Below, one piece after another: positions 40,376 to 51,152 of a stretch of DNA of 64,000 nt. The notes beneath the pieces were generated by a model. That model made no database searches. It had not been told where the DNA came from and was given only the letters and a program-made list of their open reading frames with translations. A program made the position numbers and the translations under genes. The stretch lies in assembly GCF_001605885.1 (NCBI RefSeq), contig NZ_LRPE01000004.1, positions 1-64,000 on the forward strand, given 5' to 3'. This DNA comes from Acinetobacter lactucae (lineage in GTDB: Bacteria > Pseudomonadota > Gammaproteobacteria > Pseudomonadales > Moraxellaceae). Numbering within the stretch: position 1 is the stretch's first letter; each line of letters begins with the position of its first letter.

Positions 40376-41338
40376 TTAGTAAGAGACATAGACGTCAGTA
40401 AGGAGTTGTTCTGGTTGTGGGTATGCCGCAGCACGAGCTTTAGCAACGGCATCATCAACATTTGCTTTAGATGCTGCATCAATCTCGTCTAGTTTGGCTT
40501 CATCAATTTTGCCTTTGACTTTTTCTCGGAAAATTTTCAAAGGATCTTTATTTTCTTTGATGAATTCGACTTCTTCTTTAGAGCGAATCAAGCCCGGGTC
40601 ACCTTCAAAGTGGCCATAAAAGCGGTTCGTAATGGTTTCAATCACACTTGGACCTTCACCACGGCGTGCACGATCAATAGCAGTTTGGGCCGCTTCATAA
40701 ACTGCAAAGAAATCGGTACCATCAACTTTAACTGCTGGTAAACCAAAACCAGCTGCACGACCAGCAATATCCTTACTTCCTACCGCGTAATCATGGCCCG
40801 TTCCTTCACCAAAACCGTTATTTTCGAAAACGAAAATGACTGGAAGTTTAAGCACAACAGCCATATTCATCGCTTCAAAGGTAAGGCCTTGGTTTGAACC
40901 ACCATCACCTGTAAAAGACAGGCCCACGCCACCAGTTTTTAAGGTTTTTGCTGTCAACGCTGCACCAATTGCTAATGGAGGCCCGCCGCCCACAATTCCG
41001 TTGGCACCGAGCATACCTTTATCCAAATCGGCAATGTGCATAGAACCGCCTTTTCCACGACATAGCCCGTCATCTTTACCGAAAATTTCCAGCATCATGG
41101 CATGAATGTCACAGCCTTTTGCAATACAGTGTCCATGCCCACGGTGTGTTGAAGTGATATAGTCTTTGTCGGTTAAGTTTTCGCAAATCCCGACTGCTAC
41201 AGCTTCTTCACCACTGTATAGGTGAATAAAGCCAGGAATATCACCATTGGTATTTTCTTCGTGAAGTCGATCCTCAAATTCACGAATATCACGCATGCGT
41301 TTATATGCTGCGAGTAATTGCTCTTCCGTTAATTGCAT
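40376..41338 (-). CDS. acoA: acetoin dehydrogenase E1 alpha
   Basis: This 320-residue alpha subunit has GFIHLYSGEEAVAVGI, STHRGHGHCIAKG and the TPP-motif GDGGSNQGLTFEAMNMAVVLKLP-type segment with ENNGFGEGT. It acts with AcoB in the TPP-dependent oxidative cleavage of acetoin to acetaldehyde and acetyl-CoA. It is first in the aco/bud operon. The 362-base upstream region holds no sigma-54 site, in keeping with a regulator that lacks AAA+. Confidence 0.92.
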   Translation of the reverse strand: MQLTEEQLLAAYKRMRDIREFEDRLHEENTNGDIPGFIHLYSGEEAVAVGICENLTDKDYITSTHRGHGHCIAKGCDIHAMMLEIFGKDDGLCRGKGGSMHIADLDKGMLGANGIVGGGPPLAIGAALTAKTLKTGGVGLSFTGDGGSNQGLTFEAMNMAVVLKLPVIFVFENNGFGEGTGHDYAVGSKDIAGRAAGFGLPAVKVDGTDFFAVYEAAQTAIDRARRGEGPSVIETITNRFYGHFEGDPGLIRSKEEVEFIKENKDPLKIFREKVKGKIDEAKLDEIDAASKANVDDAVAKARAAAYPQPEQLLTDVYVSY

Positions 41339-41700
41339 ATCCTTTTCCTTTATTATCTTGATTATTGAAAATCAACCAAGTTTCAGCGAGAGTTATATAT
41401 TTCGCTATAAACAATAAAGCTCAATTTAATTTAATATGCTATTAGACTAAAAATTTTTAAATGGTTTTTATGGCTATTATTTTTTATTTTTCAAAAACTT
41501 GTACAGCAAAAATAAAATTAAAAAATTTTAATACATTTCATTGTCTTGCAAAACAAACCTTTAACCAACCTTTATTAATTTATAATATTAGCTGTGTACT
41601 ATGCTCATTAATAAACTCAATATCCGTTATTTAATTTATAAGGATTTTTATTATATAGAGTCTAGTTGCAAATTATTTAATATAAAATGGAATTTTATAT
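41339..41700. other. divergent promoter region acoA / lipA
   Basis: These 362 AT-rich bases separate the divergent acoA and lipA starts. No TGGCAC-N5-TTGCW element is present on either strand, unlike acetoin operons controlled by canonical AcoR. I see no small gene. Confidence 0.5.
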
Positions 41701-42687
41701 ATGGACTTAAAAAAGCAAATAGGAACTGGTATTAAATTAAGAGGAATGGATAAAGTTGCTCGTATTCCGATTAAAATCTTACCTACAGAAGAGTTACCAA
41801 CAAAACCTGACTGGATTAGAGCCAAAATAACCGATTTTGAAGAAATTAACCGCATAAAAAATTTGCTACGTCAACAAAAGTTACACAGTGTTTGCGAAGA
41901 AGCAGCGTGTCCAAATTTACCGGAATGTTTTGGTGGAGGTACGGCAACATTTATGATTATGGGAGACATCTGTACTAGACGCTGCCCTTTTTGTGATGTG
42001 GCTCATGGTCGCCCAAGAGCTTTAGACGAAGATGAACCTAAACACTTGGCAGAAACAGTCGCAAACCTAAACTTAAAGTATGTCGTGATTACCTCTGTTG
42101 ACCGCGACGATCTACATGATGGCGGCGCTGCACATTTTGTAAAATGTATTGAAGAGATCAGAAAGCGCTGTCCAGAGACATTAATTGAGATTTTAGTACC
42201 AGATTTTCGCGGTCGTTTAGAGACAGCGCTTTCAACTCTAAGCTTATCGCCTCCAGATGTGTTTAATCATAATATTGAGACAGTTCCGCGTTTATATAAA
42301 GCGATGCGTCCTGGGTCAGACTATCAACATTCACTCGAGCTGCTAAAACGCTTTAAAGCATATTGTCCCGATATCAAAACCAAGTCTGGCCTGATGGTTG
42401 GATTAGGAGAAATAGAGGCTGAAGTGCTTGCCCTACTCAACGATTTAAAAGACTATCAAGTCGATCTTGTCACGATTGGTCAATATCTTCAGCCTTCAAA
42501 ATCACATGCGCCTATTCATCGGTTTGTAAATTTACAAGAATTTGAACGATATACCCGACACGGTAAGCGATTAGGTTTTAAAAATATTTGGAGTGCACCT
42601 ATGGTTCGTTCTAGCTATTTTGCTGATCGACAATATTTTGGAGAAGAAGCACCGAAACCTTTTAGTCGACAAGATGTCTTATCGTAA
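41701..42687 (+). CDS. lipA: lipoyl synthase, acetoin-cluster copy
   Basis: This 328-residue radical-SAM enzyme inserts sulfur into octanoyl groups to make lipoyl. It has the auxiliary cluster motif [12 protein letters not shown] (C-x4-C-x5-C) and radical-SAM motif CTRRCPFC (C-x3-C-x2-C). It diverges from acoA, whose AcoC needs lipoylation, so it probably raises lipoylation capacity during acetoin growth. A housekeeping lipA with lipB is expected elsewhere; no lipB or lplA is visible here. Confidence 0.92.
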
Positions 42688-42843
42688 GGAATAGGCAATT
42701 AACAAAACTTATCCAATAGGATAATGGTCAAGACCTATAAAATTATTTAAGGTAAGGAGATAACTAGGAAATAGTCACAATAAAAAAGTTATAACAGTTG
42801 AGCGGCTACGGATACGCCATTTCAATGATAAAGGAATTTCGAT

Positions 42844-43983
42844 ATGGATATGTCAGAACAATTATCATCGCCTTTTATAGACACTACTCCGTCCTTATTT
42901 CGGCCGGAATCCTCATCTCATTCTAAATTATTAGGAAAAAAACCATCACTTGAGCTTGAGGCAGCACCTTTGTTTGATCTGGGTGAGGAATGGGAACATT
43001 CATTATTTGGTCGTTCGATTCATGAGTGTCATCGCAATTTAATGCATATTGCCGAAGATGCCGATATGGCAATTGGTGTGACTGATCCTCATGGCACGCT
43101 ACTTTGGACATGGAGTAGTCATCCAATGCGCTCATCGGCCGAGCAAGTACACTTTGTTGAAGGTGGTCAGTGGTCTACTCAGGCAGTAGGTCAAAATGCA
43201 ATTGGTTTAGCATTAAATACACATTCTGCAAGCTGTGTTTACTCACACGAAAACCAAATGAATAGTGTTAGAGACTGGGTGTGTTACGCAGCCCCAATAA
43301 CAGATACAAATACAGGTCAATTTTATGGGATTATGAATTTATCGACTAAATCTCATAAGCATAATTCTCTTGGTCTTTTAGCCGTTGAAAGATGTGCAGA
43401 TATTGTTAAACAAGCTATTCAGCTACATCAAAAAAATATTTTGTATATTAAGGCCTTTGGAACTCCCAAAGTTCAATATAACCAACACAGCCTTACATTG
43501 ACTCAACGTCAAATTGAAATTCTGTGCATTCTAACTCTTTGTCCTGAAGGGATTAATCTTGAAGAACTTCACTATGCTTTATATGGTGATCGGCCTGTAA
43601 GTACCACCACTTTAAAAGCAGAACTTTCTCAACTTAGAAACCTAATACCCGACGTTATCGAGTCACGACCATATAGACTTAACTGCGAAATTCAATGTGA
43701 TTTTTTAATGGCTGAACAAGCATTAAACCTAGGCTTCACATCAACTACGCTGACACTTTATAAAGGAAGTTTTTTATCTAAATCAGAAAGCCCTTTTTTA
43801 TGTGCATGGAGAGATTGTTTTGACGCTCGTTTGAGCCATGTGATTTATCAAATTGAAGATATTGATCAATTATTACGCGTAGTCAGTCGTGTACCAGACC
43901 GTGTAGATGCTGTTGAACGCTTACTTGAATTATTACCCGAAGAAACACCTTATCGAACTAAACTGTTAAAGTTGCTCGAATAA
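42844..43983 (+). CDS. AcoR-like GAF-domain regulator without AAA+ domain
   Basis: This is a 379-residue regulator. Residues 55-200 are a GAF domain whose wording (GGQWSTQAVGQNAIGLAL, VRDWVCYAAPITDTNTGQFYGIMNLS) is that of AcoR/DhaR activators, including the near-canonical G(T)NAIG motif. In place of the AAA+ and Fis domains there is a winged-helix-like segment (residues 205-285; SLTLTQRQIEILCILTLCPEGI and RNLIPDVIESRPYRL) and a further 95-residue tail. It lies downstream of lipA and probably controls the acetoin genes through sigma-70 promoters. Start 42844; the ATG two codons later is equally possible. Confidence 0.88.
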   Translation: MDMSEQLSSPFIDTTPSLFRPESSSHSKLLGKKPSLELEAAPLFDLGEEWEHSLFGRSIHECHRNLMHIAEDADMAIGVTDPHGTLLWTWSSHPMRSSAEQVHFVEGGQWSTQAVGQNAIGLALNTHSASCVYSHENQMNSVRDWVCYAAPITDTNTGQFYGIMNLSTKSHKHNSLGLLAVERCADIVKQAIQLHQKNILYIKAFGTPKVQYNQHSLTLTQRQIEILCILTLCPEGINLEELHYALYGDRPVSTTTLKAELSQLRNLIPDVIESRPYRLNCEIQCDFLMAEQALNLGFTSTTLTLYKGSFLSKSESPFLCAWRDCFDARLSHVIYQIEDIDQLLRVVSRVPDRVDAVERLLELLPEETPYRTKLLKLLE

Positions 43984-43986
43984 AAT

Positions 43987-44021
43987 AAAAGGGAGAATAT
44001 CGTATAAATATTCTCCCTTTT
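43987..44021. terminator. bidirectional terminator
   Basis: A 14-base-pair stem (AAAAGGGAGAATAT with ATATTCTCCCTTTT) has a seven-base loop. It ends the regulator gene and the convergent UndA-like gene. Confidence 0.85.
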
Positions 44022-44031
44022 TAAGGCCAGA

Positions 44032-44784
44032 TCAAGCAGAGGCTTGAAGCTGTACCCTATAGCAATCGTCCAAAGCTAATTCATAATACCGTAGCCCTTC
44101 TTCGGCAGCATGAAATGCTTTTTGCTGCCAGTCAGGACGGTCATTACATAAACGCTTAATCAGTTCCATAGCTTCATATGGATGAAGATCATCATAATGT
44201 GCATGAGCACGTAACCAAGCTAAAGAACGTTTATCAATCGTGACTTCAGGATGATTCGTATAGGTATGAATACCTTTATACACCTGAATAGACCAATCTC
44301 CGGTTGCCCATTCAATTGCTAAATTTGTTGCAGCCAGACATTCTGCCAAATTCCCTCGATGACTCATATTCCATAGAAAATGGTTTACCGCGTTCATAGC
44401 AGCTGGTGGACGTACATGATCAAGTTCTTCAACTGTTAAGCCAAAACCTCCAGCCCAATCGCGATACCATTTTAAGTGTCGCTCTTCTACCTTAATATTT
44501 TGGATTAACCAATCTCGTGCTTCTGTAACTCCCGGTTCAGAAAACCCTGTTGCTTTCCCTAATGCTCCAGCCATATACGACGGGAAATGGGCGACTAATG
44601 GATAGAAATTAAGTAAAGCATAACGGAAACTATCTAGGCTCAATCCCCCATTGGCCATTTCCGTAAAAAACGGATGTTTACTCACCCGTTCTTTTGCTGG
44701 TAACAGGTCGTCCCAGAACCGTTGTGACCATCCATTATGCGGCGTAATTTCTAAATTCATTCCATATTGATTTAGAGCAGTCAT
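44032..44784 (-). CDS. UndA-like heme-oxygenase-fold diiron oxidase
   Basis: This 250-residue protein is of the TenA/PqqC-like fold. The candidate metal ligands Glu100, His103 (IKVEERH), Glu158 (AATNLAIEWATGDWS) and His194 (LRAHAHYDDLHPYEA, with Asp198/Asp199 and His201) match, at almost the same residue numbers, those known for Pseudomonas UndA, which decarboxylates medium-chain fatty acids to terminal alkenes such as 1-undecene. The surrounding phrases also match my memory of UndA. So a fatty-acid-decarboxylase or related diiron oxidase function is likely, though TenA-type hydrolase or another HDO reaction cannot be excluded. It stands alone, away from pqq or thi genes. Confidence 0.8.
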   Translation of the reverse strand: MTALNQYGMNLEITPHNGWSQRFWDDLLPAKERVSKHPFFTEMANGGLSLDSFRYALLNFYPLVAHFPSYMAGALGKATGFSEPGVTEARDWLIQNIKVEERHLKWYRDWAGGFGLTVEELDHVRPPAAMNAVNHFLWNMSHRGNLAECLAATNLAIEWATGDWSIQVYKGIHTYTNHPEVTIDKRSLAWLRAHAHYDDLHPYEAMELIKRLCNDRPDWQQKAFHAAEEGLRYYELALDDCYRVQLQASA

Positions 44785-45104
44785 TGCTAATTTTCCTATT
44801 TATATGACAGCAATCATCTGTATTTCACGCTATAAGTCTATCCGAAAATGATAAAGATACAATCGTTAATCGACCATTTGTAACTTTTTTCGATGGATTG
44901 AGAGACTTTAGATAATTATTACGCTAATCATTGAAATGTCGTGATTTTTATCACATTTAACATAGATAAAAATCATTACTTTTTTAAAAAATCTGTATTA
45001 TTATTTTGAATAAACCACACATTATATAATCAATATTTTTAGATGGAACTTTACTTAAAATAAGTCTGATTTTATAACAACTTCCAATATAGTGAGCATT
45101 AATT
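44785..45104. other. divergent promoter region UndA-like / diguanylate cyclase
   Basis: The 320 AT-rich bases contain a CRP-type palindrome at 44940-44955 that lies midway between the two divergent starts. I see nothing else coding. Confidence 0.5.
44940..44955. promoter_or_regulatory. CRP/Vfr-type palindrome
   Basis: The sequence CGTGATTTTTATCACA fits TGTGA-N6-TCACA with one difference in the first base. It is about 155 bases from each divergent start. Confidence 0.5.
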
Positions 45105-46334
45105 ATGAAGTTGCAAGGTTCCAATATATTGGGACAGGAACAAATAGATTTATTAACCACGCGAGGATTAAACTTCGTATGGTTTCCAAAGCGGCTTGAA
45201 ACGATTTATCGTTTTCAGTACCAAAATGGTGCTGCCTATGAGTTCCGCTATAGAGCGCCTATTATTTTAATATTATATATATTTTTAAGCTTTGGTATAT
45301 ATCAAGTTTTACCAAGTGAACAAGTTTTGCCCTGGTTTAGTTATTATTCTTGGGTAGGTGTAATTGTTTTTATTGCTTGGATTTTATCATTTATTAAAAA
45401 ACTGAACCAATATTTTGATTATTATGTAGGAATTGGCTCAGCTTTAGCGGTAGCAATTACTTTTATTTTAATTAATGTTATTGAAAATGGCCAAGAGAAT
45501 GTTCTTTTCCATGCAGCGATGATGTATGCAATCGTTATTATTTATGGTGCTGTTGGTATGCGTTTTTACACCGCCATATTTGCTGGGTGGATAGGAGGAC
45601 TAGCTGGAATTTTAGTAAGTAACTACTTAAATGGTGTAATCGACTGGACTTTTCTGAACCGCACTTATACCTTCAGTAGTTTTCTAGGAATGACTCTCGC
45701 CTATGCAACTGACCGTCAGCACCGAGAAAACTATTTACAAAACTGTATGATCGAGCTTAACCGTATTGAGCTCATGCAACAAGCACAGCAGTTATCCTTA
45801 CTCTCACAACAAGATGCACTTACGGGTTTAGCCAATCGACGCTATTTAGATGAAACACTTGATAATGAATGGCGCCGTGCATTACGGCATGAAACACCAC
45901 TCACAATTATGATGGTCGATATCGATTATTTTAAAGCATACAATGACACGCTAGGACATCTCAAAGGTGATGAATGTTTAAAAGAAATCGCAATTGCTAT
46001 TTCTTCTATTGCTGCTCGTAGTGGTGATTTAGTTGCTCGTTATGGCGGCGAAGAGTTCTTGCTACTATTTCCAATGACAAATGCGCAGCAAGCTTTAATA
46101 CAGGTCGAACGTTTAATGAGTGCGATTAATAAAATTGCGATTAAGCATCCATGTAGTGATGTTTCACCTTATGTCACCATTAGCGTAGGAGTCGCAACCA
46201 CAATTCCACGGCTAAACGATTCAATTTCTGCTTTTGTTGCACGAGCTGACCATGCCTTATACAAAGCAAAAACAAATGGGCGTAATCAATATAAAATTGC
46301 TGTAAATGAAGAACAAATTGTAGATTTAACTTAA
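45105..46334 (+). CDS. membrane-bound diguanylate cyclase
   Basis: This 409-residue protein makes cyclic di-GMP from two GTP. Six hydrophobic segments fill residues 45-200, then a GGDEF domain from about residue 240 has DALTGLANRRYLDETL, DIDYFKAYND and the active-site GGEEF at 314-318. RSGD at 305-308 is a good inhibitory (I-) site, five residues ahead of GGEEF, so product inhibition is likely. No EAL domain is fused. It is a single gene with no operon partner in view. Confidence 0.92.
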   Translation: MKLQGSNILGQEQIDLLTTRGLNFVWFPKRLETIYRFQYQNGAAYEFRYRAPIILILYIFLSFGIYQVLPSEQVLPWFSYYSWVGVIVFIAWILSFIKKLNQYFDYYVGIGSALAVAITFILINVIENGQENVLFHAAMMYAIVIIYGAVGMRFYTAIFAGWIGGLAGILVSNYLNGVIDWTFLNRTYTFSSFLGMTLAYATDRQHRENYLQNCMIELNRIELMQQAQQLSLLSQQDALTGLANRRYLDETLDNEWRRALRHETPLTIMMVDIDYFKAYNDTLGHLKGDECLKEIAIAISSIAARSGDLVARYGGEEFLLLFPMTNAQQALIQVERLMSAINKIAIKHPCSDVSPYVTISVGVATTIPRLNDSISAFVARADHALYKAKTNGRNQYKIAVNEEQIVDLT

Positions 46335-46542
46335 AATGGCAAATAACTATTGAAGATAACTTTTGGCTAATGATTATATTATTTTTTGGTATTACTCATT
46401 TGAATTAAAATAATGAAAAGCTTATCTATTTAGCTTTAATATAGACTAAATATTTTTGTTTAACTGTTAAAATTAAATTAAAAATAGTTTAGTTAAGATT
46501 AATAAATACCGACTCTACTCTAACCTAAAATATTCCAGTTCA

Positions 46543-47268
46543 TCAGAATTCTCCTTTCAACTTTCTCCAAAGTTTATTTATAAAATAGAGCAATAAGTTT
46601 TGCTCAATCCTGGGAGGTGTTGTCTGAACAACTTCATTTGAAAACGGTAATATCGAGACAATATTTTCATGTATCGTTTCATAGTTCGGATAAGCTTCTT
46701 TTTTAATAATTTCTATCGTTTTTTGTATTTCATCTACAGATAAGTTCAAGAATTTTTTAATTTCTTGGACTGTTTTTGATTCAATAGATAATAAAGCACA
46801 AACTCTAGTGACATTAACAATTTGCTCTGCATGAATATTTTTAAAGTTTGGATAACAAACGAGTTTATATAAAACTTTAGTTTCCAAAGAATCATTAGAA
46901 GTTATATTTTTATTATTTTCTATACGCTCTTGATGAGTATTTTGAAAATATTCATTCTTTTCTACTTTTTGTAAAATATTTAAAAGTTCCTGATACCGTA
47001 TTGGTCTCTTTAACCCATATTGGTAACCTTTTAAAAGCTCAGGATTATTGCTTAATACGATTTTAATTTTTTTAGGAATAAGAATATTGGTATAACCACT
47101 ATCTAAATCAATAATATGTATATCTGGATCATTATCATTATATACCCAATTTCCAGATAACTGAGATGACAAAGACAAGTCATGAATAACTTTTATCATT
47201 GCCTGTAAATTTTTAGGCAAAAGCTTATCCTTTGACATACAGCCAATTCTATATGTGCATTGATTCAT
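46543..47268 (-). CDS. receiver-like two-domain protein, unknown
   Basis: This 241-residue protein is unknown to me. The first 110 residues alternate beta-like and helical segments (DPDIHIIDLDSGYTNILI, KKIKIVLSNNPELLKGYQYG, LKRPIRYQELLNIL), which resembles a receiver fold with the final lysine-proline-like turn but no phospho-acceptor triad. After a polar linker (NNKNITSNDS) comes a C-terminal helical domain with VRTRVCALLSIESKTVQEIKKFLNLSVDEIQKTIEIIKK-like helix-turn-helix wording (cited in part). So it may be a transcription factor or regulatory adaptor with a pseudo-receiver. It stands alone. Confidence 0.6.
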   Translation of the reverse strand: MNQCTYRIGCMSKDKLLPKNLQAMIKVIHDLSLSSQLSGNWVYNDNDPDIHIIDLDSGYTNILIPKKIKIVLSNNPELLKGYQYGLKRPIRYQELLNILQKVEKNEYFQNTHQERIENNKNITSNDSLETKVLYKLVCYPNFKNIHAEQIVNVTRVCALLSIESKTVQEIKKFLNLSVDEIQKTIEIIKKEAYPNYETIHENIVSILPFSNEVVQTTPPRIEQNLLLYFINKLWRKLKGEF

Positions 47269-47597
47269 TGATATTTCCCCAATTTCAATGATGACTTTGA
47301 AAATTATTTGTTTAAAGTAATAAAATTTAAATATGTAATAAACTTATATAAAACCAATTTGACTAAAATTAGTTTTAAGATATAAATATCTTGCGTAGCG
47401 AACAAATTAATAAGATTTTAATTTCTTACTTAAGCAGATAAATATATTCAGAAATAAATCGCGCGTATTATATTTATATAGAGATTATAAGACAAGGAAA
47501 TAATTTAAAATTTAATAGAGTCAAATATGGTAAAAAATTAAAGCCCCCAAGTTTAAGTTAAATATGGGGGCTTAATTACTATAGTCGAAAATTATGA
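47269..47597. other. intergenic stretch
   Basis: These 329 AT-rich bases hold only the terminator of aroC at 47541-47573 and the likely promoter of the receiver-like gene. I see no other feature. Confidence 0.5.
47541..47573 (-). terminator. terminator of prmB-aroC
   Basis: The stem AAGCCCCCA pairs with TGGGGGCTT around a 15-base centre. Read leftwards a T-rich run (TTAATTTTTTACC) follows. Confidence 0.8.
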
Positions 47598-48689
47598 CTA
47601 TGGTTCAATTGGGGCAAACGGTGGAACAACATCTGCATTTTGTGCACGATGGCGTAGGAAGTGGTCCATTAAAACAATGGCTAGCATTGCTTCTGCAATT
47701 GGAGTTGCTCGTACACCTACACATGGGTCATGACGACCTTTAGTTAACACATCAGTATCTTCACGGCTTAAATTAATCGTTTTACCTGGTGTTGTAATAC
47801 TTGCAGTAGGTTTTAATGCGATGGCAACTCGAATCGTCTGACCACTCGAAATACCTCCTAAAATACCGCCTGCATGGTTCGCCAAGAAGCCATTACTCGT
47901 CAACTCATCACGTGTTTCATGACCAAATTGCCCAGCAACTGCGAAACCATCCCCGATTTCAACACCTTTAACCGCATTAATACTCATCATGGCATGAGCA
48001 ATGTCAGCATCTAGGCGGTCAAAAACAGGTTCACCCCAGCCTACAGGAACTTTTTCAGCTAAAATTTCTAGCTTAGCCCCGCAGCTTGTACCTTGTTCAC
48101 GTAAAGATGTCACCAAGGCTTCAAAACGTGAAACAGCGTCTACATCACCACAGAAAAATGGATTATTCGGAACTTCATTCCAATCCAGTTTTTCAGCAAC
48201 TTCATTACCAATTTGTGTGACGTGACCGCGAATCAATACACCAAATTTTTCTGCTAAATATTTTTTAGCAATAGCACCCGCTGCAACACGCATAGCAGTT
48301 TCACGAGCACTAGAACGACCGCCCCCCCGGTAATCACGGAAACCATACTTTTGTGTATAGGTGTAGTCCGCATGACCCGGTCTAAAAGTCTGAGCAATAT
48401 TGCCATAATCTTTCGATTTTTGGTCAGTATTACGAATAAGTAAGCCAATTGGCGTACCAGTCGTTTTACCCTCAAACACACCAGAAATAATTTCGACTTG
48501 ATCAGGCTCTTTGCGCTGAGTCGCAAATTTTGATGTACCCGGCTTACGGCGGTCCAGATCTTTTTGTAGATCTTCTTCGGTTAACTCAAGACCAGGTGGC
48601 ACACCATCAACAATTGCCATTAAGCCAACGCCATGAGACTCACCACATGTCGTTACGCGAAAGAGTTGTCCAATACTGTTCCCTGCCAT
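47598..48689 (-). CDS. aroC: chorismate synthase
   Basis: This 363-residue enzyme converts EPSP to chorismate with reduced FMN, the last common step to aromatic amino acids. Motifs: [18 protein letters not shown] near the start, [28 protein letters not shown] (cited in parts: [12 protein letters not shown] and [11 protein letters not shown]), and [11 protein letters not shown]. It follows prmB by 12 bases and ends at a terminator. Full length. Confidence 0.96.
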
Positions 48690-49946: not shown

Positions 49947-51152
49947 TTAAAGCTTAAGTTTTTCTGCCACATAATCTGAATCTTTGTCTCCACGACCAGA
50001 AAGATTAACTACAATCATGGTTTCTTTCGACAGCTTTGGCGCTTCACGAATTGCCCAAGCGACCGCATGTGAACTTTCAAGTGCAGGAACAATACCTTCA
50101 ACACGAGATAAGGTCATAAAAGCATCCAAACATTCTTGATCAGTTGCAGTGCTATATTCCACACGCCCTAAATCTTTTAAGAAACTATGTTGTGGCCCAA
50201 CACCTGGATAGTCCAATCCTGAAGCAATAGAATGCACCGGTAACGGTTCACCTGCTTCATTTTCAAGGACATAACACGCCATACCATGAATTTGGCTTGG
50301 CTTACCTAAAGTTAGCGTTGCTGAATGCATATTGGTCTCTAAACCATGTCCAGCTGGTTCAACCCCGACTAATTTCACATCCGAATCATTTAAAAATGCG
50401 GTAAAAGCGCCAATCGCATTTGAACCGCCCCCTACACATGCCACCACATAATCCGGATTTTTTCCAAAACGATGATGTGTCTGCTCTTTAATTTCATTAC
50501 CAATAATCGATTGAAAATCTCGAACCATTTTTGGAAATGGATGTGGTCCAACTACAGAACCAATTGCATATATAAAGTTTTTAGGATCTTTTAAATATTC
50601 TTCAAATGCACTATCTACGGCATCTTTTAAAGTTGCTGTACCACGTGTAACTGCTACCAAACGAGCACCCAAAATTTTCATTTTGACCACATTAGGATGC
50701 TCTTTTTCAATATCGACTTGTCCCATGTGGATTTCACATGGAATACCCACTAAAGCACAAGCCGTTGCTAAAGCGACCCCATGCTGACCCGCACCTGTTT
50801 CAGCAATAACCTTCTTTTTGCCCATATACTTAGCAAGAAGAGCCTCACCTAAACAGTGATTGATCTTATGAGCACCTGTGTGATTTAAATCTTCACGCTT
50901 TAAATAAATTTGCGCACCGCCTAACTGTTCTGACAGACGCTTAGCATGAAATAAAGGACTTGGACGGCCTACATAATTTGAAAAAAGATCTGATAGTTCA
51001 TTTTGAAATTCCGCTGTATGGCGGATTTCTTCATAAGCAACATTAATTTCATCCATTGCTTCTTTTAAATGTGGCGGAATGAATTGACCGCCATATTCAC
51101 CAAAGAATCCCTGTTCATTCGGTAAAGCAATACCATTAATTTGATGTTGCAT
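49947..51152 (-). CDS. trpB: tryptophan synthase beta-type enzyme, stand-alone
   Basis: This 401-residue PLP enzyme has the catalytic Lys96 in [21 protein letters not shown] and Glu118 in [11 protein letters not shown]. The [10 protein letters not shown] phosphate loop and SRGRGDKD-like end are present. It departs from usual TrpB1 at several places, for example HKIN for HKTN and PPHLKEAM in place of the common PETLMPAL-like segment. No trpA is next to it; it follows the VWA gene by 36 bases at the end of the ycgL-moxR-VWA run. It may be a second TrpB that uses free indole. Confidence 0.88.

Follow-up and report, generated by a model that had tools for sequence, protein, structure and literature searches.

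A putative UndA-like dimetal oxidase of Acinetobacter lactucae and its pairing with a divergent diguanylate cyclase

Introduction

UndA of Pseudomonas (PDB: 4wwj, 6p5q) transforms C10-C14 fatty acids into 1-alkenes. The enzyme has a set of three His and three carboxylate residues, and its W190, beside the cluster, is radical-linked, the W190F variant having been studied (PMC13108848). In P. fluorescens, deletion of undA impairs biofilm maturation, and mutant and wild type appeared alike when pure 1-undecene was given (PMC10614000). In Pseudomonas, undA is paired with rbdA, such that an UndA-type oxidase adjoins a membrane c-di-GMP enzyme, as it does in the locus described here. A single paper in the literature searched brings undA or undecene together with rbdA, and no paper combining undA, 1-undecene and c-di-GMP was found there under those spellings.

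1-Undecene has been reported in connection with Acinetobacter. A. baylyi ADP1 carrying an empty plasmid gave a trace, 4.46 ug/l, according to the accessible part of PMC6410514, which cites Rui 2014 for UndA homologues in Acinetobacter. Release in vitro by A. baumannii and P. aeruginosa was proportional to cell load in Table 1 of PMC11727074, seen as an excerpt; E. coli likewise released 1-undecene, and thus that table does not point to the gene described here. For 1-undecene accompanying A. baumannii infection, an excerpt of PMC7111428 refers to Gao 2016, and in the available portion of PMC10791660 no volatiles were detected from A. guillouiae MYb10. The accessible parts of these four sources do not tie 1-undecene to the gene in question.

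The window examined here is a stretch of 64,000 nucleotides of Acinetobacter lactucae (contig NZ_LRPE01000004.1, positions 1 to 64,000). It encodes an UndA-like haem-oxygenase-like dimetal oxidase (HDO) and, divergent from it, a diguanylate cyclase (Table 1).

Table 1. Features of the oxidase locus, in coordinates of the window
Feature	Position	Strand	Basis
UndA-like haem-oxygenase-like dimetal oxidase (HDO), 250 aa	44032..44784	-	ORF, PDB/Pfam matches, alignments, model
Presumed ligands of HDO: E100, H103, E158, H194, D198, H201			alignments
Divergent intergenic region, 320 bp, presumably with both promoters	44785..45104	.	sequence
Diguanylate cyclase, 409 aa, divergent from HDO	45105..46334	+	ORF, Pfam, model, ImcA match
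Cyclase architecture: N-terminal membrane-like helical domain ('6TM') and GGDEF domain with GGEEF motif			
GGDEF domain of the cyclase	45807-46289	+	domain match
Likely terminator hairpin in the gap between HDO and the convergent regulator	43987..44021	-	15-pair stem, then T-rich tail
Convergent GAF-type regulator, outside the conserved unit	42844..43983	+	ORF, family match
Lipoyl synthase of the acetoin cluster, outside the conserved unit	41701..42687	+	ORF, family match

The oxidase and its family

The reading frame of the oxidase opens with ATG and occurs as a single copy in the window's genome. Its product scores above the cut-offs of two Pfam families, Haem_oxygenas_2 (72.5 bits; cut-off 28.9) and TENA_THI-4 (51.1 bits; cut-off 22). 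The best match in a phmmer search of the PDB was the TenA homologue PSPTO1738 of P. syringae (PDB: 3oql; E value 6.5e-43), which is of UndA type by sequence, followed by UndA (4wwj, E value 3.5e-40; 6p5q, E value 5.8e-40) and then CADD (E value 7e-4). A profile built from 40 sequences returned the same PDB order (3oql, 5e-55; UndA, 7e-52 and 1e-51; then 2e-9). Amino acid identity with these nearest solved relatives, UndA and the P. syringae homologue, is 32-34%.

For the AlphaFold2 model, made from 40 sequences (mean pLDDT 91.4), Foldseek placed UndA (4wwj) at the top with a TM score of 0.86, and VIA-align gave Z scores of 28.3 (4wwj), 27.7 and 27.5 for three UndA entries, 27.1 for 3oql, 23.4 for CADD, and approximately 20-22 for TenA, HrmI and PqqC. 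CADD, a Fe/Mn p-aminobenzoate synthase (PDB: 1rcw, 8va9), shares the fold with 21-22% identity; its NCBIfam model, TIGR04305, is the best NCBIfam match of HDO at 46.1 bits, which is below the cut-off of 200, and the TenA thiaminase II model, TIGR04306, reaches 27.1 bits, below its cut-off of 130. A common fold by itself says nothing of the function of HDO.

W190 and all six presumed ligands show no variation in an alignment of 13 sequences, the window's included, nor in one of 40; each occurs in no fewer than 56 of 57 sequences of the clade to which HDO belongs and in 10/10 of the UndA clade. In the alignment, the three-His/three-carboxylate set of HDO sits in register with the UndA residues that we take to be the metal ligands. 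A sequence-only reading of the window had proposed an UndA-like diiron oxidase from four of these residues, E100, H103, E158 and H194, and from two flanking phrases. The residue numbers proved exact, these being four of the six presumed ligands, and both phrases, AATN.AIE.ATG.WS and HA.YDD.HP.EA, are present in UndA in the residue-by-residue PDB alignment. Judged from the aligned sequences, the agreement of ligands and motifs with UndA lies far above chance. The converse outcome considered in that reading, a closer relationship to PqqC or TenA with ligands missing, is not what was found: the folds of CADD, TenA and PqqC score lower, and the ligands are intact. What holds of the UndA-like identity is that UndA is the closest characterised protein by sequence and fold; HDO nevertheless falls outside the clade of characterised UndA, with which it is about one-third identical.

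Another Acinetobacter HDO, DtpC of A. baumannii, was considered as the same protein and rejected, as both the ligand spacing and the neighbour differ; in the part of PMC13232832 that was available, the ligands mutated in DtpC are E143, H153 and H232, and katE is co-transcribed.

Clades and distribution

When 67 family members and 9 outgroup rows were placed in a quick maximum-likelihood tree, the family divided along a long branch (SH-aLRT 100), with 57 rows, HDO and its relatives from Acinetobacter, Alkanindiges, other Moraxellaceae, Alcanivoracaceae and Marinobacter among them, on one side and eight Pseudomonas-type sequences together with L128 and L227 on the other. In this quick tree with its long branches, HDO is not within the clade of characterised UndA; the root is not trusted because the outgroup branches are long. 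Loci are called 'Pseudomonas-type' here on the strength of a neighbour gene that matches PA0861 of P. aeruginosa, as tested for L124, with 61-100% identity in all eight. The two clades have 32 conserved positions in common (thresholds 97% and 100%), W190 and the six ligands included; at 17 others, each nearly fixed, they differ (thresholds 93% and 90%). Two differences lie beside ligands, where the HDO clade has W159 and R102 and the UndA clade Gly and Asn, respectively; others are L155, Y61 and A237 in the HDO clade versus Tyr, Trp and Phe in the UndA clade. Phe239 of UndA may have a role in chain length, which is not counted as evidence here. In PMC13108848, no channel-lining residues of UndA (F239, pocket) were found. 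With about one-third identity, a separate clade and these residue differences, the chain length and even the product of HDO may differ from those of UndA. As far as the sequences indicate, HDO most likely works like UndA, and the name UndA would be premature.

Counting the window's own genome each time, matches to the oxidase were obtained in 51 of 119 sampled genomes of the genus, in 25 of 293 of the order (weak matches to other proteins included; 18 matches at E ≤1e-30), in 3 of 369 of the class at E 1e-10, and in 32 of 398 of the phylum, mostly weak. The UndA-type proteins of the sampled order are just 34-36% identical to the window oxidase. A contig scan with two short peptide patterns yielded 110 relatives, the best 80 of which constitute the named loci. 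Among these best 80 are proteins from A. pittii (98% identity), A. baylyi (75%; strain DSM 14961, L166), A. calcoaceticus, A. nosocomialis, A. venetianus and other Acinetobacter, as well as from Alkanindiges, Moraxellaceae MAGs, Agitococcus, Marinobacter sp. SS21 (59%) and Alcanivoracaceae records (57-58%).

Some copies appear to be broken. In A. ursingii (L107/L188) the oxidase lacks its 5' end, the match starting at residue 41-43, and the cyclase was not found beside it, as if the module of oxidase and cyclase were decaying. A stop codon lies within the oxidase of G031 (C72), and the cyclase match is in two pieces in G053 (C1) and G075 (C6); decay or assembly error are both possible in these three genomes.

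The neighbouring diguanylate cyclase

The presence of a diguanylate cyclase gene beside that of HDO is a point missing from the sequence-only reading. The GGDEF domain is matched at E 3e-50, there is no EAL domain, and no Pfam family reaches its cut-off over the N-terminal domain, which is helical in the model (mean pLDDT 83); the '6TM' helix count is our own reading, not that of a TM predictor. It is this N-terminal domain, and not the GGDEF domain alone, that is homologous in the divergent partners elsewhere (39-98% identity). The GGDEF/GGEEF motif is conserved in 32/32 partner cyclases, and an RxxD five residues upstream of it in 20/32. ImcA of P. aeruginosa (PDB: 8wcn), a membrane diguanylate cyclase, matches the window cyclase along its whole length (367 residues aligned by structure; profile E value 1e-45 across residues 16-402), at 24% identity and with an rmsd of 10.5 A over the whole. 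A single-sequence search of the PDB with just the N-terminal domain gave no match.

Going by locus-tag order, A1S_1695 of A. baumannii 17978 is the presumed counterpart of the cyclase. According to the available part of PMC7005169, A1S_1695 is a GGDEF protein that behaved as an active cyclase, with strong effects, when tested heterologously. On the same basis, the oxidase would correspond to A1S_1696, a tag of which no mention was found in the literature searched.

Pairing with c-di-GMP genes

A 6TM-GGDEF gene lies upstream and divergent of the oxidase in 69 of the 80 named loci (best 80 of 110). A GGDEF-EAL gene takes its place on the same strand in two, a contig end interrupts the locus in two, and seven have no c-di-GMP gene within 3.5 kb, namely A. 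kyonggiensis, A. ursingii with its truncated oxidase, four Alcanivoracaceae records, and one Pseudomonadales MAG that clusters with the Alcanivoracaceae records in the tree. The pair stays while the outer flanks change: in 67 of the 69 loci, the outer neighbours fall into approximately 19 clusters on each side, a rough number because it was counted from mechanical ORFs. Within the genus, the cyclase is located within 1.7 kb of the oxidase in 47 of the 51 oxidase-bearing genomes; the cyclase of G013 is on a separate contig, G027 has its oxidase at a contig end and cyclases on other contigs, and no cyclase match was obtained in G109, where the oxidase is at a contig end, or in G116.

The Alcanivoracaceae-type loci (L110-L119) are more varied, with one 6TM-GGDEF pair, two GGDEF-EAL genes (downstream of the oxidase, in L115 and L117), two more distant GGDEF genes (0.7-0.8 kb downstream, in L116 and L118, one ORF intervening in L116), and nothing in five. 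As 7 of the 80 named loci and five of these ten are without a partner, the pairing is not obligatory, and the Alcanivorax loci show that an adjacent partner is dispensable for the enzyme. The upstream GGDEF-EAL genes of L226, L187 and L202 have weakly GAF-like and 6TM-like parts. Homology to the 6TM domain in GGDEF-EAL partners (E values 6e-12, 2e-10 and 1e-7) is not specific, because second cyclases approximately 6.4 kb from the oxidase (L115:16798-18111 and L117:1850-3151) give comparable 6TM scores (1e-11 and 8e-9). In two MAG loci, L182 and L197, another GGDEF gene is convergent on the oxidase, which thereby lies between two c-di-GMP genes.

All eight Pseudomonas-type loci carry an RbdA-like GGDEF-EAL gene directly upstream on the same strand, the neighbour in L124 matching PA0861 at E 1e-264, and in five of them (L120, L121, L122, L125, L127) a convergent GGDEF gene is present downstream too. 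In L128 the RbdA-like gene is downstream, and L227, cut by a contig end, retains an RbdA-like N-terminal part. The Pseudomonas partner is a co-directional GGDEF-EAL protein, whereas that of the window is a divergent GGDEF-only cyclase; an rbdA orthologue is absent from the window locus, where the partner is without EAL, and the orthologous loci match no RbdA N-terminal part. Pairing with c-di-GMP enzymes characterises the wider UndA family, in which the Moraxellaceae and their relatives have a different cyclase.

A c-di-GMP domain was found within 1.5 kb in 43 of 49 UndA-family loci, a set with many near copies that includes the window itself, versus 0 of 30 control loci, which are weak matches from the order and phylum searches. 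The Pfam scan of 28 controls (L056 and L063, with a stop inside the match, were left out) assigned 13 to Haem_oxygenas_2, including two fusions with an AMP-binding enzyme, 14 to TENA_THI-4 alone, and one, L050, to a transketolase, which is no relative of the oxidase. The two fusions, L051:1-2166 (+) (G387) and L054:1438-3603 (-) (G368), come from genomes of the same taxonomic order as the window. In both, PF00501 and PF14518 share one frame, an AMP-binding (acyl-activating) enzyme being joined at its C-terminal end to a haem-oxygenase-like iron protein from a different family, and it is possible, by their domains, that acid activation and oxidation are combined in a single chain.

Genomes carry 8-47 GGDEF domains each (15 genomes; 9-16 in four Acinetobacter, 8-30 in six Alcanivoracaceae-type and 31-47 in four Pseudomonas-type genomes), and we estimate, at one gene per kb, that a GGDEF gene would adjoin the oxidase by chance in approximately 0.5-2% of genomes. 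In the genus, 49 genomes have both genes, 2 the oxidase only, 3 the cyclase only and 65 neither (Fisher p 3e-27, ignoring kinship). Corrected for kinship on a trpB tree, this co-occurrence is not significant (median p 0.25 over 200 pairings); the tree provides 3 supported independent pairs (10 when unsupported branches are counted), of which 2.9 of 3 are concordant on average. By raw count the two genes are strongly associated in the genus, but few independent events underlie this. The trpB tree omits 30 of the 119 genomes, including 14 of the 51 oxidase carriers, for want of a match, for a paralogue as top match or, in G077, for a match of 65% identity, and trpB is not an independent marker in some species because it is near the locus there. 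The window has trpB at 49947-51152, and in many Acinetobacter the only match listed for it is a paralogue of approximately 52% identity.

Proposed function and alternative explanations

On balance, we consider it probable that HDO is an oxidase of the UndA superclade which decarboxylates fatty acids and is functionally tied to c-di-GMP through the divergent cyclase. It would be a soluble diiron (or dimetal) enzyme, with the cofactor and mechanism transferred by analogy from UndA (PMC13108848). UndA-like decarboxylation is our best guess from the sequence and model comparisons, and most likely a free medium-chain fatty acid would be oxidatively decarboxylated in an O2-dependent reaction. The substrate carboxylate would bind one iron and a peroxo-diferric species would form. 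Oxidation of the substrate, either at C3-H or at the carboxylate, would then release CO2 together with a terminal alkene, for example 1-undecene or a homologue. The alkene product, its chain length and a functional role of the pairing are what we infer, the tie to c-di-GMP signalling via the divergent membrane cyclase being comparable to that of UndA with RbdA in Pseudomonas. The conserved neighbourhood suggests that the production of alkenes may be coupled to biofilm signalling in bacteria other than Pseudomonas as well. If HDO makes alkenes, 1-undecene in Acinetobacter could be traced to a named gene, and this volatile, linked to Pseudomonas, would gain another genetic source; should the pairing be functional, the association of undA with rbdA and the effect of 1-undecene on biofilm maturation would become parts of a general rule.

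The enzyme might instead be an UndA-like fatty-acid oxidase of changed specificity, acting on longer or functionalised acids, or giving a hydroxylated or desaturated product and not 1-undecene. Alcanivorax, Alkanindiges, Marinobacter and Acinetobacter are genera known for alkane and lipid use. All four are among the carriers, so that another lipid substrate would be natural, and the near-fixed clade differences at W159 and R102 beside the ligands, and at L155, Y61 and A237, point the same way. Set against these are the unaltered ligands, W190 and 32 common core positions, as well as the trace of 1-undecene from ADP1 in the accessible part of PMC6410514, and we regard a changed specificity as unlikely, albeit a serious contender.

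We assign a similarly low, though not negligible, likelihood to the view that HDO is a stand-alone lipid enzyme and that its c-di-GMP neighbour reflects inherited gene order or chance. The two genes are on opposite strands, presumably with their own promoters, part of the Alcanivoracaceae is without a partner, the co-occurrence loses significance on correction for kinship, and c-di-GMP genes are common in all 15 genomes counted. However, the pair persists among varying outer neighbours, other lineages substitute RbdA, 6TM-GAF-GGDEF-EAL or GAF-PAS-GGDEF-EAL proteins for the cyclase, and none of the control loci has a c-di-GMP domain. That HDO has an unrelated substrate, as a CADD-like p-aminobenzoate synthase, an N-oxygenase or a thiaminase-like enzyme, with a likeness to UndA in fold only, is very improbable, since although the reactions of the superfamily are highly varied (PMC13108848) and CADD is the next-best fold and top, if sub-threshold, NCBIfam match, UndA is well ahead by sequence and fold, and the c-di-GMP neighbourhood is shared with UndA and with none of the 30 controls, 27 of which are haem-oxygenase-like or TenA-like.

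Beyond the functional tie that we favour for HDO, we speculate, as a rather doubtful extension, that UndA-type synthases form one half of an alkene/c-di-GMP module in several gammaproteobacterial families. In Acinetobacter and its hydrocarbon-using relatives, the membrane domain of the cyclase would sense the fatty-acid substrate or the volatile alkene and set c-di-GMP accordingly, the volatile serving as an autocrine surface signal. The partner would have been exchanged several times (RbdA, 6TM-GGDEF, 6TM-GAF-GGDEF-EAL) with the coupling retained.

Other surroundings of the gene

In the divergent region, a TTGTAT...TACAAT-like pair upstream of HDO recurs in at least part of the genus (29 upstream regions, by eye). 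A common regulatory motif was considered for this region; at least a sigma-70-like pair is seen, in part of the genus, and no motif is claimed. A promoter consensus scan of the region gave no more promoter-like sites than shuffled sequences. No Rfam family reached its gathering score in 41300-47600.

On the other side, the convergent GAF regulator is presumed to be the counterpart of A1S_1697, the regulator that heads the acetoin cluster, with lipoyl synthase and acoA next, in the available part of PMC6595428. It was rejected as a conserved partner because it adjoins the oxidase in the A. calcoaceticus-baumannii group alone; it was found in 3 of 293 genomes of the order at E 1e-10 and in none of the Alcanivoracaceae-type family. 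The acetoin operon and lipA were likewise rejected as functional context, these flanks being missing from most other named loci (best 80 of 110). Both the regulator and the acetoin genes occur at this place in a few Acinetobacter only. Beyond the cyclase, the window encodes a hypothetical protein of 241 aa (46543-47268), for which no family exceeds its Pfam cut-off and which has a counterpart in place in four of the 80 named loci (best 80 of 110).
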